A stretch of DNA of 64,000 nt from Catenovulum maritimum (GTDB lineage: Bacteria; Pseudomonadota; Gammaproteobacteria; Enterobacterales; Alteromonadaceae). The position numbers were made by a program, and so were the translations under genes. The stretch lies in contig NZ_KQ130491.1 in NCBI RefSeq assembly GCF_001050375.1, forward strand, positions 1 to 64,000, written 5' to 3'. Under the pieces are notes generated by a model. The model did not search any database and was not told the DNA's origin. It saw nothing but the letters and a program-made list of their open reading frames with translations. Below, piece after piece: positions 9,490-15,132 of this stretch (its first letter is position 1; each line of letters begins with the position of its first letter).

Positions 9490-11997
9490 ATGAAGTCTTC
9501 TAAAATTTTACCTTTAACGCTTGGCAGCGCTTTATCTTTTACCTGTTTAAATACAATGGCAGCTGAAATTCCATTAACAGGTGTGATTGTTGATTCTCAA
9601 AGTCGCCCAATTCATCAGGCTGTTATCCAAGTAAAAGGTAGCAAGCAGAAGGTTAAAACAGACAGTAATGGTCAATTTAAGATTAGCTTAGATACGTCTA
9701 AAGTGGATGAAATCCATATAACAGCTGACGGCTTCGCTCATGTTAATTTTCATTTAGATGAACAACCAGACTTAACCGCGCCACTTACCATTAAGCTTGC
9801 ATCTTCAGTAATGGAAGTAATTGATGTTAAAGCCAGTATTTTCCACTTATCGCAAATTGAGTCAGCTGCACCAGTGAGCGTTTTATCAAATGAAAAATTA
9901 CTTAATCGTCAAGCGGCAACATTAGGCGAAACTTTAAAAAATGAATTAGGTATTCATAGTAATTTTTATGGTGGCGTGACAGCTTCCCCTATTATTCGAG
10001 GTTTAGATGGACCAAGAGTAATGACAGCACAAAATGGTTTAGACACTGGCGACGTGTCTCGTGTTGGCCCAGATCATTCAATCACAGCCGAAGCGGGTAC
10101 CGCTGAGCAAATTGAAATTTTACGCGGCCCAGCTTCTTTATTATTTGGTAGTGGCGCAATTGGTGGTGTGGTTAATGTAGTCGACAACCGAGTACCTAGT
10201 TTTAAAAACAACAAAACAGAATTATTTTATAGCCACTCAAGTGTTAATCAACAAGACAGTGCGAGCTTAACGCTAGAGCGAGATATCGCAGATTTTGCTT
10301 TCCATTTAGATGGTTTTTGGCGTCAGTCAGATGATTATAAAATTCCTGAAGGCGAACACCATGCCGAAGAAGAGCATGAAGAAGACGGACATGAAGAAGG
10401 CCATGAAGAGGAACACGAAGCGCATGCAGATAGAGTTGAAAACTCGTATTCTGAAGCATCAGGGATAACTTTAGGCGCAAGCTATATATTAGATAACGGC
10501 TATATTGGCTTATCTTACGGCAGGTTAGATCAAGAATATGGTATTCCTGGCCACGAGCATGCATCTCATGAGGAAGAAGAGCATGACGAAGCACACGAAG
10601 ATGAGCATATGGAAGAAGCTCATGTATTCGCTAAAGTTAAACAAAACAGATATCAACTGATTTCAGAATTGAATCTAGCGGATAACTTCATCAATCAAAT
10701 TAATACCCGAATCGGCTACACAGACTACCAGCACGATGAAATTGAAGGGGATGAAATCGGCACTCGTTTTAACTCTAGATCAACAGAAGCCAAAGTTGAA
10801 ATGAGGCATAACACCCTTGCACAATGGCGTGGTGGTTTTACGTTACATTATAAAGATAAAGACTATAAAGCTGCTGGTGAAGAAGCATTTTCCCCCAATA
10901 GCAACGAACAAACACTCGCTTTAGCTTGGTTAGAAGAAAGGCATTTTGATGACTTACTAATCCAATTAGGCGCCCGAGTTGAGCAGGTAAAGATTAGCGC
11001 GGGTAACTTTAGTTATAATGAAATTCACTTCATTGAAGAAGGTGAAGAAGATGATCACCTAGATGCGCATGACGATGAACACCTAGATGAAGAAGCACAC
11101 ACAGAAGAGTTGTTTAGCAATTGGCAACAAAGCTTTAATTTAACTAACGTGTCACTTGGCTTTATTTGGGACTTTGCCCAAGGTTACAACCTAGGTGTAA
11201 ATTTAACTCGTGCTCAAAGAGCACCTTCTGCTGCTGAACTACTGTCTTTTGGTCCGCATTTAGCGAGCAACAGCTATGATATCGGTGCAGCTTATCAAGT
11301 CGATTTTGAATCTGGTCATGTTGACGATGTTAAGCTTAAAGCCGACATAGAAACGTCAAATAACTTAGATTTCTCAATCCGCAAATTTGAGGGTGATACA
11401 GGCTTTATTTTCAACTTATTTTATAATCGAATTAATAACTTTTACTATCAAGCTAATGTGAACCATGAAGCTGAAATTAGCCATGAACCGCATGAGGAAG
11501 AAGGCCACGACGCAGCAGATGAGGCTGAAGAACATGAGTTTCTCCACTTACCTGTTTATCAATATCAAACCGATGATGCGACGCTGAAAGGTATAGAGTT
11601 ACAATATATTTGGCAAATTAACTCGGAATTAAAATACACATTTTTAACTGATTATATCCAAGTTAAATTAGACAATAATGGCTACGCACCTAGAATTCCG
11701 CCACTAAGAATTGGCTCAAACCTAAATTATCAAACGGATAGTTATAGTGTAGAAGCTTCTTGGTCTTATTATGCTAAGCAAGACAAATTGGCAGAGTACG
11801 AAACGGCAACAGATGGCTACCATATGTTAGATTTAAGCTTTAATTATTACTTAAGCCAAAATACCACAGACTTAACTGTATTTGCTAAGGTGCAAAACTT
11901 AACTAATGAATATGCTCAAGTACATAGCTCATTAATAAAACAAGATTCACCTCTAGCAGCCCGTAATTTTACTCTAGGCATTCGAGCTGAGTTTTAA
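9490..11997 (+). CDS. znuD: ZnuD-like TonB-dependent zinc receptor
   Basis: Outer-membrane TonB-dependent receptor, 835 residues. In order: signal peptide ending TMAAE; a carboxypeptidase-regulatory-like domain (LTGVIVDSQSRPI, residues about 25-100); a plug (about 110-235) with RGLDGPRVM and VEILRGPASLLFGSG; then a barrel ending in GIRAEF. Four extracellular-loop stretches are packed with His, Glu and Asp (for example HHAEEEHEEDGHEEGHEEEH), as in zinc receptors of the ZnuD family. The ATG at 9490 is preferred over an in-frame ATG at 9442 because the latter sits inside the Zur box and the former starts a clean signal peptide. Likely role: zinc piracy under Zur control. Confidence 0.88.
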   Translation: MKSSKILPLTLGSALSFTCLNTMAAEIPLTGVIVDSQSRPIHQAVIQVKGSKQKVKTDSNGQFKISLDTSKVDEIHITADGFAHVNFHLDEQPDLTAPLTIKLASSVMEVIDVKASIFHLSQIESAAPVSVLSNEKLLNRQAATLGETLKNELGIHSNFYGGVTASPIIRGLDGPRVMTAQNGLDTGDVSRVGPDHSITAEAGTAEQIEILRGPASLLFGSGAIGGVVNVVDNRVPSFKNNKTELFYSHSSVNQQDSASLTLERDIADFAFHLDGFWRQSDDYKIPEGEHHAEEEHEEDGHEEGHEEEHEAHADRVENSYSEASGITLGASYILDNGYIGLSYGRLDQEYGIPGHEHASHEEEEHDEAHEDEHMEEAHVFAKVKQNRYQLISELNLADNFINQINTRIGYTDYQHDEIEGDEIGTRFNSRSTEAKVEMRHNTLAQWRGGFTLHYKDKDYKAAGEEAFSPNSNEQTLALAWLEERHFDDLLIQLGARVEQVKISAGNFSYNEIHFIEEGEEDDHLDAHDDEHLDEEAHTEELFSNWQQSFNLTNVSLGFIWDFAQGYNLGVNLTRAQRAPSAAELLSFGPHLASNSYDIGAAYQVDFESGHVDDVKLKADIETSNNLDFSIRKFEGDTGFIFNLFYNRINNFYYQANVNHEAEISHEPHEEEGHDAADEAEEHEFLHLPVYQYQTDDATLKGIELQYIWQINSELKYTFLTDYIQVKLDNNGYAPRIPPLRIGSNLNYQTDSYSVEASWSYYAKQDKLAEYETATDGYHMLDLSFNYYLSQNTTDLTVFAKVQNLTNEYAQVHSSLIKQDSPLAARNFTLGIRAEF

Positions 11998-12014
11998 TTA
12001 TAGCTAGGTCAAAC

Positions 12015-12056
12015 GAACACAGATCTGATTGATATAGCTCGATCAGATCTGAGTTC
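12015..12056. terminator. Hairpin after the zinc receptor
   Basis: Arms GAACACAGATCTGAT and ATCAGATCTGAGTTC pair at 14 of 15 positions around a 12-nt loop, 17 bp past the stop. No T-run; it may end or protect both the receptor transcript and the convergent DUF3465 pseudogene transcript. Confidence 0.5.
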
Positions 12057-12108
12057 ATACAGCTAAGCGCACCTGTCGTAAAACTAACGATTAAACTCAC
12101 TAATAAAG

Positions 12109-12768
12109 CTATTGGTAGACTTTACCATTATGCTTTAACCATCCGCCAACATGACGGCCTTTTGGGTCATGATGAGTCCAGTGAACCACACCCCCTTTTT
12201 TATTCCATTCATATTCACCGTAAAATTGGACGAGATCACCTTTGGCTATGGAATTTATTCTAGGCGCAAGGTCAATATTGTGTGCAATTAGAATGGTTTG
12301 TCCTGTTGAGAGTTTTAAAATAAATTTTTGATGGCGAGAGCCTTTATTATCACCTTTAAGTATTCTAATGACAGTGCCGCTCCCTTTTACTTGTACATCG
12401 CTTTGATGGTTTTCATAGAGCTAAATCAATATAAATTGCGAGTATCAGAGTCATCACAGACAGTTCAATTCAAGGCGTGTCATTGCAGGAATGTAGGCAC
12501 CTTTCAAAATGATACAACACAGAAGTGAGCTGTCTGTGAGGCTCCTGAAAGGCTGGGCTAAAAGCCATTTATTCTGCGTTAATTTGGCTTGGCATAGAAC
12601 CACTATGCCTGCGCCAACTTGCCTTGCCTAAATGGCTTTTATCTCCAGCTGATTATCGCTATTTATATTGATTTAGCTCTAAGCTAATTTTACAGACTCT
12701 GCTTGAACTGGAACAATTGATTGCAATAAAACCAATACAACAAATATCGATTTTAATATCTGATTCAA
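12109..12768 (-). pseudogene. DUF3465-family secreted protein, interrupted by a MITE
   Basis: The 5-prime part is 12768-12680 (TTG start, preceded by GAGGTGAGG) and the 3-prime part is 12415-12109. Deleting the 262-bp insert plus one TA joins them into an uninterrupted 131-codon frame: signal peptide (KSIFVVLVLLQSIVPVQA), then a domain with SRHQKFILKL, TILIAHNIDLAPRI, VQFYGEYEWNKKGGVVHWTHH and GRHVGGWLKHNGKVYQ, which I recognise as DUF3465. The function of the family is unknown to me. As it stands the frame is broken at codon 30: reading into the element meets a TAG almost at once. The intact flanks suggest a recent event. Confidence 0.88.
12418..12679. mobile_element. 262-bp MITE with 31-bp terminal inverted repeats
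   Basis: Terminal inverted repeats at 12418-12448 and 12649-12679 match at 28 of 31 positions and begin GAGCTAAATCAATATAAAT. The element is flanked by TA on each side (12416-12417, 12680-12681), the target duplication typical of IS630/Tc1-mariner transposition. It encodes nothing plausible; a 66-codon frame inside is not protein-like. Internally it folds strongly: TCACAGACAG (12454-12463) with CTGTCTGTGA (12530-12539); TAAAAGCCATTTA (12559-12571) with TAAATGGCTTTTA (12629-12641); and GGCATAG with CTATGCC around the loop AACCA (12591-12609). Confidence 0.9.
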
Positions 12769-12828
12769 TATCAAATCACCTCACCTCTATTTTTATCATG
12801 ATGGCTACACAGACGCTATTTGTTGGTT

Positions 12829-15132
12829 TTATTCTGATTTAAACCATTTAGTTAGCAAGCTTTCTAATTGAGAAATATCTATTGGTTTCATTAAGTAGTC
12901 ATCAAAATCAAACTCATCAGAACTGGAAATTTCATCGCTAGAGCTAAATTTGATTAAAATAGGTGGCTGTTTGCCTTGCTCAACGTAGTGTTGGGTGATT
13001 TTGAATGCGGCTTCTATACCGCCCATTTCAGGCATATGAATATCTAAAAAAATCATGTGGTAATGCTTTTTATCAATTAACTCTAGTGCTACTTGCCCAT
13101 TTTTAGCGGTATCCACAGTCAGCTGAAATCGGCCAAATACAGCTGTCGCGACCTCTCTATTGATATCTATATCATCACAAACCAAAATATTAGCATTAGA
13201 TAAAAGCGTTTGTTGGATTCGAGTGTCTAGATCTGGGTTCGCCGCACTTTCTGCAGCTATCGTTTTGACTTGTAAGGTGTAGTTAAATTTAGTTCCAACA
13301 TTTAGCTCGCTTTCTACCCAAACTTCTCCGGCCATTAACCCAATCAATTGTTTATTGATTGCTAGGCCTAAACCCGTACCCATTAGTTTCTTATTTTTAT
13401 CTGTGTTTTCTTGGGCGTATGGCTGGAATAGCTTATCCATAAACTCTTGATTCATCCCTAGGCCTGTATCTTGTACGCAAATCGCTAATGTGGCTGTTTC
13501 GCTCGATACATAGAGCTGTTGTACCGTTATAAGCACTTGCCCTTGCTCAGTAAATTTGACTGAGTTTCCTACAAAGTTATATAAAATTTGGCTAAATCTT
13601 GTTCCGTCGATTAAGTATTCTTCATCCACATTCGAATCAATATTAACCGCTATTTTTACCTGTTTATCTCTGACTAATTCAGTAAAAACATTGGCAACAC
13701 TATTAACTAACTGACGAATATTTGTTTTTGAAGGCCTTAATTCCATACAGCCTTGCTTACTTTTAGAGTAATCTAAAATGTCATTCACTATGGTTAATAA
13801 ATTTTGGCTATTAAGTTGAATGCTCTGTATCCATTTTTGTTGTTCCGGATTCAACCCAGAAGAATAGAGCATGTTTGAAATGCCTATTATACCTGTCATA
13901 GGTGAGCGAATTTCATGACTCATATTGGCTAAAAATTCACTCTTTTTCTTGTTTTCTTCATCCGCTTTGTCGGTAAGTGCTTTGAGTGTTTTGGTTTTTT
14001 CAGCGACTTTTTGTTCTAAGGTTTGGTTATAGCTAATTAACGAGCTAGATAAAGCATTGACTGAATCGGCTAAATCATTCAACTCAGCATAACTGTCCGT
14101 GTTTAACTTTAAAGCGTAATCACCGTCAGAGATCATTTTTGTTTTTGCGGTAAATTGTTTGATTGGTTCACTTATGTGTTTAACCGCTAAATAAGCAAAC
14201 ACGAGTGCGAATAATAAAATAACAATAATGCACAGGATAAAATAAAATTTAATTGCTTTTAATTCGGCTAAGGCTTCTTCTTTGTGTTGGGAAATGAGTA
14301 AAAACCAAGGCGTTGATTCAATACTTTGAGTGACAAAAAACAGTGCCTGACGCTTATCATTTATGCTCATTTGTAGCTCAGAGTTCGACTGATTCGAGAT
14401 ATCTTCGGGTACAATAGGGATGTTATCTTTTTGCTTAAATGAGAAATCGTTTTGGTTTAAAGCATGAAATAAAGTTTTTTCAGAGTGCTTATGTTTTATT
14501 GACTCAACTAAGTAAATCTTACCCGTTTCTCCCAAAAAATCAGAGTGATTCAAGGTTTGATACAAGGCTGAAAATTGAGTGTGAACCGTTAAGTAGCCGA
14601 GTTTTTCTCCATTTAAAAACAAAGGCGCGGTAAATAAATGCATGAACTCATTGTCTGCTATTAGATAGTTATCGACAGCGACATCTTTCACCTTTGTTAG
14701 TAAGGCGTAACTTTGTTTAAATTGGCTTAAAGGCTTGGCATCTGCTTTGGTTGAAATAATGATATTGCCGTCGCTATCATGAATATCAATTTGGTTGAAA
14801 TCGGGAATAGATGCTTTTGCATCTGATAGGATTCGCAGCATCCCTTGTTTTATTTCTTGTTGCTTCTCTTCTGCTTGCTCTGGATTGCTCACCTGCTGAC
14901 GGAGAAGCTTCCTCAGTTGAGTTCGGCTCGATGTTAACAAGATGCGTTCTTTGTTTTGTTTTATCAACAATTCTACCTGCTGTTTCAAGCCAATGCTTAA
15001 GCTGATAAGCCTTTCTTCGGTATGTTTATTTATATTTTTATAAGTAAAATAATACACAGTGCTAGAGAAAGTAACTAAGCAGAAAGTGCAAAATATTGCT
15101 AACGATATAAATAAGGTCTTTGGAAGAGTCAT
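12829..15132 (-). CDS. Hybrid sensor histidine kinase with Cache-like periplasmic domain
   Basis: A 767-residue inner-membrane kinase. Order: TM helix (8-29), periplasmic double-Cache-like sensor (about 35-285), TM helix (about 295-318), HAMP (about 320-370), coiled coil, HisKA with FLANMSHEIRSPMTGIIG (His near 405), HATPase with NSVKFTEQGQ, DTGLGMNQ and GTGLGLAI, and a C-terminal receiver (ILVCDDIDINREV, MIFLDIHMPEMGG, DDYLMKPID). No HPt domain is present and no response regulator is adjacent, so phosphate probably passes to an HPt protein elsewhere. Ligand unknown; Cache domains usually bind small extracellular metabolites. Confidence 0.9.
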   Translation of the reverse strand: MTLPKTLFISLAIFCTFCLVTFSSTVYYFTYKNINKHTEERLISLSIGLKQQVELLIKQNKERILLTSSRTQLRKLLRQQVSNPEQAEEKQQEIKQGMLRILSDAKASIPDFNQIDIHDSDGNIIISTKADAKPLSQFKQSYALLTKVKDVAVDNYLIADNEFMHLFTAPLFLNGEKLGYLTVHTQFSALYQTLNHSDFLGETGKIYLVESIKHKHSEKTLFHALNQNDFSFKQKDNIPIVPEDISNQSNSELQMSINDKRQALFFVTQSIESTPWFLLISQHKEEALAELKAIKFYFILCIIVILLFALVFAYLAVKHISEPIKQFTAKTKMISDGDYALKLNTDSYAELNDLADSVNALSSSLISYNQTLEQKVAEKTKTLKALTDKADEENKKKSEFLANMSHEIRSPMTGIIGISNMLYSSGLNPEQQKWIQSIQLNSQNLLTIVNDILDYSKSKQGCMELRPSKTNIRQLVNSVANVFTELVRDKQVKIAVNIDSNVDEEYLIDGTRFSQILYNFVGNSVKFTEQGQVLITVQQLYVSSETATLAICVQDTGLGMNQEFMDKLFQPYAQENTDKNKKLMGTGLGLAINKQLIGLMAGEVWVESELNVGTKFNYTLQVKTIAAESAANPDLDTRIQQTLLSNANILVCDDIDINREVATAVFGRFQLTVDTAKNGQVALELIDKKHYHMIFLDIHMPEMGGIEAAFKITQHYVEQGKQPPILIKFSSSDEISSSDEFDFDDYLMKPIDISQLESLLTKWFKSE

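Follow-up and report, generated by a model that had tools for sequence, protein, structure and literature searches.

A minus-strand gene of Catenovulum maritimum is split by a 262-bp insert, and the locus raises the question of what this insert is, how it is moved and why its interior folds so strongly. The features concerned are listed below. Positions are those of the window, meaning the whole 64-kb stretch of DNA that was analysed; the model R1 is described further on.

12109..12417, minus strand: remainder of the interrupted DUF3465 gene, including the stop codon; the junction codon uses TA
12416..12417, no strand: left copy of the TA target site
12418..12448, plus strand: left terminal inverted repeat, end class A (28/31 against the right end; 15–16/20 against the IS630 ends of genome G054)
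12444..12547, plus strand: hairpin unit 1 (HP1); R1 110.6 bits, R1 having been trained on this copy; fold z -5.4
12550..12653, minus strand: hairpin unit 2 (HP2), an inverted copy of HP1; R1 60 bits, E 4.5e-13; fold z -5.75
12649..12679, minus strand: right terminal inverted repeat, end class A (28/31 against the left end)
12680..12681, no strand: right copy of the TA target site
12682..12768, minus strand: opening 29 codons of the split DUF3465 gene, counted from the TTG at 12768; signal-peptide-like by eye

An insertion in a DUF3465 gene

The element occupies positions 12418–12679. An earlier reading, made from the sequence alone, had described its 28/31 terminal inverted repeats, the TA on both sides and a frame restored by excision, and each of these observations holds. 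With the element present, the DUF3465 reading frame reaches a stop immediately. When the element and one TA are taken out, the flanks form a continuous open frame on the minus strand, 131 codons long from the TTG at 12768 or 133 from an in-frame TTG at 12774. The part of the gene past the insertion matches Pfam DUF3465 (E 9.8e-53), in agreement with the identity proposed for it.

A homologue of the gene is present in three of the seven other Catenovulum genomes (88, 67 and 66% identity), and in none of these three does an insert lie inside the matched part. The closest homologue, that of Catenovulum adriaticum (88% protein identity over 101 residues), is uninterrupted; its alignment across the insertion point is gap-free and has a single TA there, which is the empty site that the sequence-only reading had suggested seeking in relatives. 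Similarity between the two genomes is confined to the DUF3465 gene and the neighbouring genes differ, so that the gene is equivalent whilst equivalence of the locus is not established. Compared with this homologue the interrupted gene has a dN of 0.099 and a dS of 1.18, the latter near saturation, which indicates that it was broken recently. The suggestion of a recent insertion is further borne out by the closest copy of the element, which differs from that in the window at two positions (99.2% identity). The 262-bp insert is thus a recently moved MITE, an identity supported by copy number, by the TA duplication and by the relative's empty site. Elsewhere in the window, an 18-bp inverted repeat (89%) lies at 12015–12056, past the preceding 851-codon gene and in a terminator-like position.

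Copies in the genome and the genus

The element has the size and terminal inverted repeats of a MITE and carries no transposase, its one 66-codon frame overlapping the left end. Twelve near-full copies with 85–100% identity occur in the same genome, along with many fragments and solo ends, so that the search for further ends proposed at the outset has been answered. The 20-bp end, allowing up to three mismatches, occurs 31 + 35 times in this genome, and the reversed pattern 0 + 3 times. TA flanks both sides in 11 of the 12 copies, the remaining one having TA and TG. The window copy is the only one to interrupt an open frame of at least 100 codons; two further insertions sit within frames of 67 and 80 codons. 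Copies are also found in the genomes of Catenovulum sp. 2E275, C. agarivorans YM01 and DS-2, C. adriaticum and one further Catenovulum (G005).

The same genome holds several reduced or variant forms. Many solo 20-bp ends of class A, as the ends of the window element are termed, occur with nothing recognisable adjoining (L052, L054 and L058, for example), and at L053 two class A ends stand face to face with the interior missing. A single element with ends of a second class, B, is present at C17:92130-92396 alongside the class A copies. One contig starts within a class A end (C24:1-28), beyond which TTGCTAGT takes the place of the MITE interior, and this is possibly a longer element sharing class A ends.

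A conserved fold of two hairpins

The core of the family consists of two hairpins of about 104 nt in inverted order, separated by a spacer of about 1 nt, with terminal repeats of about 33 nt and TA outside. Compared with 200 shuffled sequences the element is much more stable on both strands (z -11.5 and -10.7). The strong internal hairpins remarked on earlier were correctly seen yet understated, the fold being conserved far outside Catenovulum.

For the analysis of conservation, 34 elements were picked for diversity among those collected and were aligned freely, the fold being derived from the alignment by RNAalifold. This gave an outer stem formed by both ends and, within it, two hairpins, with two-sided changes at 60 of 81 pairs. 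Covariation was 0.554, compared with 0.176 after shuffling and 0.05–0.10 when partners were slid. When no fold was assumed, each of the 11 column pairs with the strongest covariation still belonged to the two-hairpin fold. Below these, some co-varying pairs lie outside it (columns 13 and 227, for example) and are read as shared ancestry, while two pairs of the top twenty, columns 172 and 210 and, slightly lower, columns 175 and 207, extend HP2. Covariation is expected for the outer stem of any transposon end pair; for the two hairpins it is unexpected. A full-length palindrome, in which HP1 would pair with HP2, was considered and is unsupported by any of the strongest co-varying columns.

A covariance model, R1, was built from hairpin 1 of the 34 elements, with no hairpin 2 in its training. 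Over the 64-kb window it recovered HP2 on the opposite strand (60 bits, E 4.5e-13) and matched nothing besides the element's hairpins; judged by this match, HP2 is an inverted copy of HP1. Plain alignment of HP1 with reversed HP2 gave uneven results in nine sampled elements (z 1.0 to 7.5). Across 64 sources R1 found 125 units, 123 of them distinct. Adjacent units were in + - order in all 53 pairs, 49 of which had a 1-nt spacer. Among the distinct units, two-sided changes occur at all 35 model pairs and covariation reaches 0.927 (0.217 shuffled, 0.07–0.14 slid) in an alignment that was fitted to R1 and is biased towards the model. By a weak measure, further pair types in the units number 135 against 126.8, a value matched by 11 of 500 shuffles. 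Across 90 non-redundant units the letters conserved at 85% or more include an initial TCAG, as well as CAAGGC on the 5' side and, on the 3' side, AAC-GC. Rfam families gave nothing up to E 1 over window positions 11900–13000; at ten related loci the elements gave none above the gathering score, the sole match above it being a neighbouring tRNA.

Distribution of the core

Among 98 relatives, 20 match the middle of the element, often at 70–74% identity and over positions 27–237 only, leaving the outer 26 or so bases unmatched. These loci hold elements of the same length bearing different ends. In an even sampling of the GTDB class, with stricter filters and at most ten candidates scored per genome, R1 matched 89 of 369 genomes and 73 of 272 genera. 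Named genomes scanned with a pattern yielded 50 stretches with the core, the hosts being Catenovulum, Motilimonas, Vibrio litoralis, Vibrio sp. CK2-1, Pseudoalteromonas, Ferrimonas aestuarii and an uncultured Alteromonadaceae bacterium. At one locus (L202 of genome G244, 223–296 and 400–611) a core element lies about 100 bases beyond a tRNA gene.

Plasmid records, searched by BLAST and R1, hold both units in Pseudoalteromonas shioyasakiensis, Photobacterium and Variovorax paradoxus, the last scoring 69 and 41.9 bits with R1; in Azotobacter (52.3 bits) and in Catenovulum adriaticum they hold a single unit. No plasmid record matched two of three distant elements, and no phage record matched the element. 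Neither R1 on a 50-kb control from E. coli K-12 (up to E 10) nor blastn against E. coli genomes found a core.

Terminal classes

Besides class A, the ends fall into class B (TATACCC...), class C (TATACCAATCCGCAT) and class D (TAATACCAATTACATTAAT, in Ferrimonas), with others more distant. Recognisable inverted ends were found on 40 of 47 distant elements examined; 35 of these span 262–277 bp and the rest 249, 290, 290, 294 and 312 bp. When these 40 were joined by A, B, C, D and Variovorax and the 45 ends were clustered by single linkage over 20 positions, they formed 14 clusters at 14/20 identity, 18 at 15/20 and three at 13/20. Shuffled ends reached 14/20 in none of 500 trials and 13/20 in four.

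Such diversity might have arisen stepwise, the ends diverging alongside diversifying transposases without exchange and the core simply changing more slowly. This is an unlikely account, though one with observations on its side. Graded variants exist within class B, outer identity between B and C is 0.60, and single linkage at 13/20 merges the 45 ends into three clusters. Against it, elements of equal core identity (0.62–0.75, in the 34-element set) have an outer identity of 0.80 within class A (19 pairs) and 0.76 within class B (107 pairs), but of 0.43 between A and B (149 pairs; 0.30 when shuffled). In a tree of 43 cores, class A moreover stands apart from all others, B and C included, with an ultrafast bootstrap of 98; a nesting of class A within B on this tree depends solely on midpoint rooting. 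Class C and class D elements each occupy a separate position, with supports of 95 and 78. C and D ends are alike at 12–16 of 20 positions and this resemblance, together with the chaining into three clusters at 13/20, indicates that part of the end diversity may be gradual drift.

Some elements depart from the usual plan. In genome G093, three 57-bp elements (C3:47772-47828, C56:102780-102836 and C67:174551-174607) consist of two class B ends only; a core-free element may thus occur, or may arise by deletion. In Pseudoalteromonas sp. NBT06-2 (L143) the two ends of a core element look unlike each other, and this is possibly a mixed-end element.

Candidate carriers

The sequence-only reading had proposed an IS630/Tc1-like transposase with matching ends. 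None was found in the window's own genome, in which no DDE_3 profile match was obtained from the contigs of 3 kb and over (six shorter ones being left out), whereas the proposal succeeded in another genus. A DDE_3 gene is present in 20 of 118 genomes of the bacterial family. In one of another genus, G054, an 887-bp IS lies between the ends TATAGCTGGATCAATTTAATTTGCGATAATC and TATAGCTAAATAAATTTAATATGCGATAAT and has two frames, matching HTH_Tnp_IS630 (9.5e-24) and DDE_3 (6.7e-32), whose overlap lies at eight consecutive A, a stretch that may be a frameshift site. Elements of class A type are also present in G054. The DDE frame of this IS matched in 34 of 295 genomes, and in none of the eight genomes of Catenovulum, the window's genus. 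Thus the IS630/Tc1-mariner group is indicated by the TA target and by IS630 ends shared in G054, no transposase with such ends being found in the window's genome or genus.

With at least 20 of 26 positions required to match between inverted ends, six of 30 IS630-like loci proved to have them: G054 (class A), G528 (B), G127, G532 and G560 (C-like) and G160 (D). IS630 ends were sought for classes A–D, and the best 20-nt matches to MITE ends were 15–17 for A, 13–18 for C and 16–19 for D; for B they were 13–15 on the left and 18–20 on the right. A or B ends compared with other classes gave 8–12, and three distant end classes with no IS630 partner gave 6–13. Judged by these end sequences, IS630-family genes bear the ends of four MITE classes, A–D. 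An autonomous class B element had been sought by end pairing in nine genomes, where inspection by eye found no pair of IS length among the places listed; it was reached through a protein search instead (G528).

Agreement between carriers and elements within a genome is less general. Core copies were fetched from the IS-bearing genomes, and 19 of 30 gave ends. These agree with the ends of the resident IS only in G054, G528 and G160. In G560 the IS has ATACCAATT ends but the fetched copies bear ends of B type, and in G532 and G127 none of eight core copies had recognisable ends.

It is conceivable that the insert is an ordinary MITE, a recently spread deletion derivative of one IS630 element with a passive interior, whose fold is a by-product of its inverted repeats. 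The TA target, the IS630-like ends and the high identity of the copies fit such an origin. We nevertheless consider it improbable: the six IS630 elements read, which showed only transposase frames, have no counterpart of the interior, whose fold, with changes on both sides of its pairs, is retained from genus to genus and from family to family.

What maintains the fold

In 11 young copies from the window's genome, mutation amounts to 0.0140 per paired and 0.0149 per unpaired site (25 changes over 162 paired sites x 11, and 17 over 104 unpaired sites x 11). Of the 25 changed pairs 15 still form a standard pair and none is compensated, whereas between genera compensation is the rule. Long imperfect palindromes can be corrected by template switching, and in principle switching during replication could rewrite one hairpin arm from the other, so that the arms are matched by mutation itself. 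This seems very improbable, as no both-sided change accompanies the 25 paired positions altered in the young copies and as such a process would not keep the conserved unpaired bases CAAGGC and AAC. The equal site rates and the lack of compensation suggest instead that copies drift after insertion, arm-to-arm correction being unseen. Free mutation in young copies, set against compensation between genera, suggests that selection probably keeps the fold in those lineages that continue to move.

The mismatches bear on the form in which the fold may act. Counted on each unit's own strand, G.T exceeds A.C by 54:12 and 75:26, compared with 26:19 in the outer ends, which favours a single-stranded form. 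The argument is weakened by the fact that G.T is the more stable mismatch in DNA as well, and by an excess already present among young copies (13:4). One form of it would be an RNA read from either strand, with a sense unit in the first half of each transcript that is, for example, cut or bound so as to lessen the harm of insertion. The strand bias agrees with this, the two points just given and the lack of any Rfam family match speak against it, and we hold it to be possible but rather doubtful.

The reading that we prefer, and consider likely, is that of a structured and long-lived MITE chassis in which a conserved core is combined with replaceable ends, IS630-type transposases moving it in trans. 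The insert belongs to a large and old family of non-autonomous MITEs, the folded core being what is conserved. IS630-type transposases would mobilise it in trans, and replacement of the outer 21 or so bases would allow a lineage to switch carrier whilst retaining the core. Lineages in which the core no longer folds would cease to spread. In the weakest step, the hairpins would most likely act single-stranded, as RNA or ssDNA, aiding movement or host tolerance. A bolder version, put forward tentatively and at somewhat less than even chance, makes the two-hairpin core the true selfish unit, an orientation-independent single-stranded module surviving by capturing the ends of successive IS630 elements. 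The age that this version implies, with a core old enough for Alteromonadales, Vibrionales and Burkholderiales alike, is held with the same reserve.

Relation to known repeats and significance

Several known repeats share single features with this family. In REPIN/REP elements with RAYT, the mobile unit likewise consists of two inverted hairpin units. REP elements, however, use a tyrosine transposase (RAYT) and, according to the part of the literature consulted, are only 20–40 bp long; the TA target and IS630-like ends belong to the present family. The bcr elements of the Bacillus cereus group are mobile repeats with a conserved RNA fold, and are set apart, by description, by their different ends and hosts.

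RUP of Streptococcus pneumoniae is a 107-bp element of one species moved by one IS, IS630-Spn1, and resembles the present family in being short, with a TA target and IS630-like ends (PMC2229807). By contrast, the present family measures about 265 bp and has two inverted hairpin units, several end classes and many host families. CIR, from Caulobacter and other alphaproteobacteria, is likened to it by description only: it has two long arms with a linker and conservation between species, but a length of about 110 bp and an exposed GANTC (PMC2229807). Correia/NEMIS, ERIC/IRU and YPAL share TA termini with the family and form long stem-loop transcripts, some of them processed by RNase III; unlike it they are shorter and, as described, have one end type each (PMC2229807). 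The nearest precedents are RUP with IS630-Spn1 for mobilisation and CIR for the two-armed shape (PMC2229807).

The open-licence literature searched held no description of this structured MITE family, and an earlier printed one is possible. Its fold is conserved over very large distances while the ends that define families change, providing a natural test of what the interior of a MITE does. The covariance model can be used for annotating such repeats in genomes. MITEs are commonly viewed as the short-lived wreckage of one transposon; the present family suggests that non-autonomous elements can outlive their carrier transposases.
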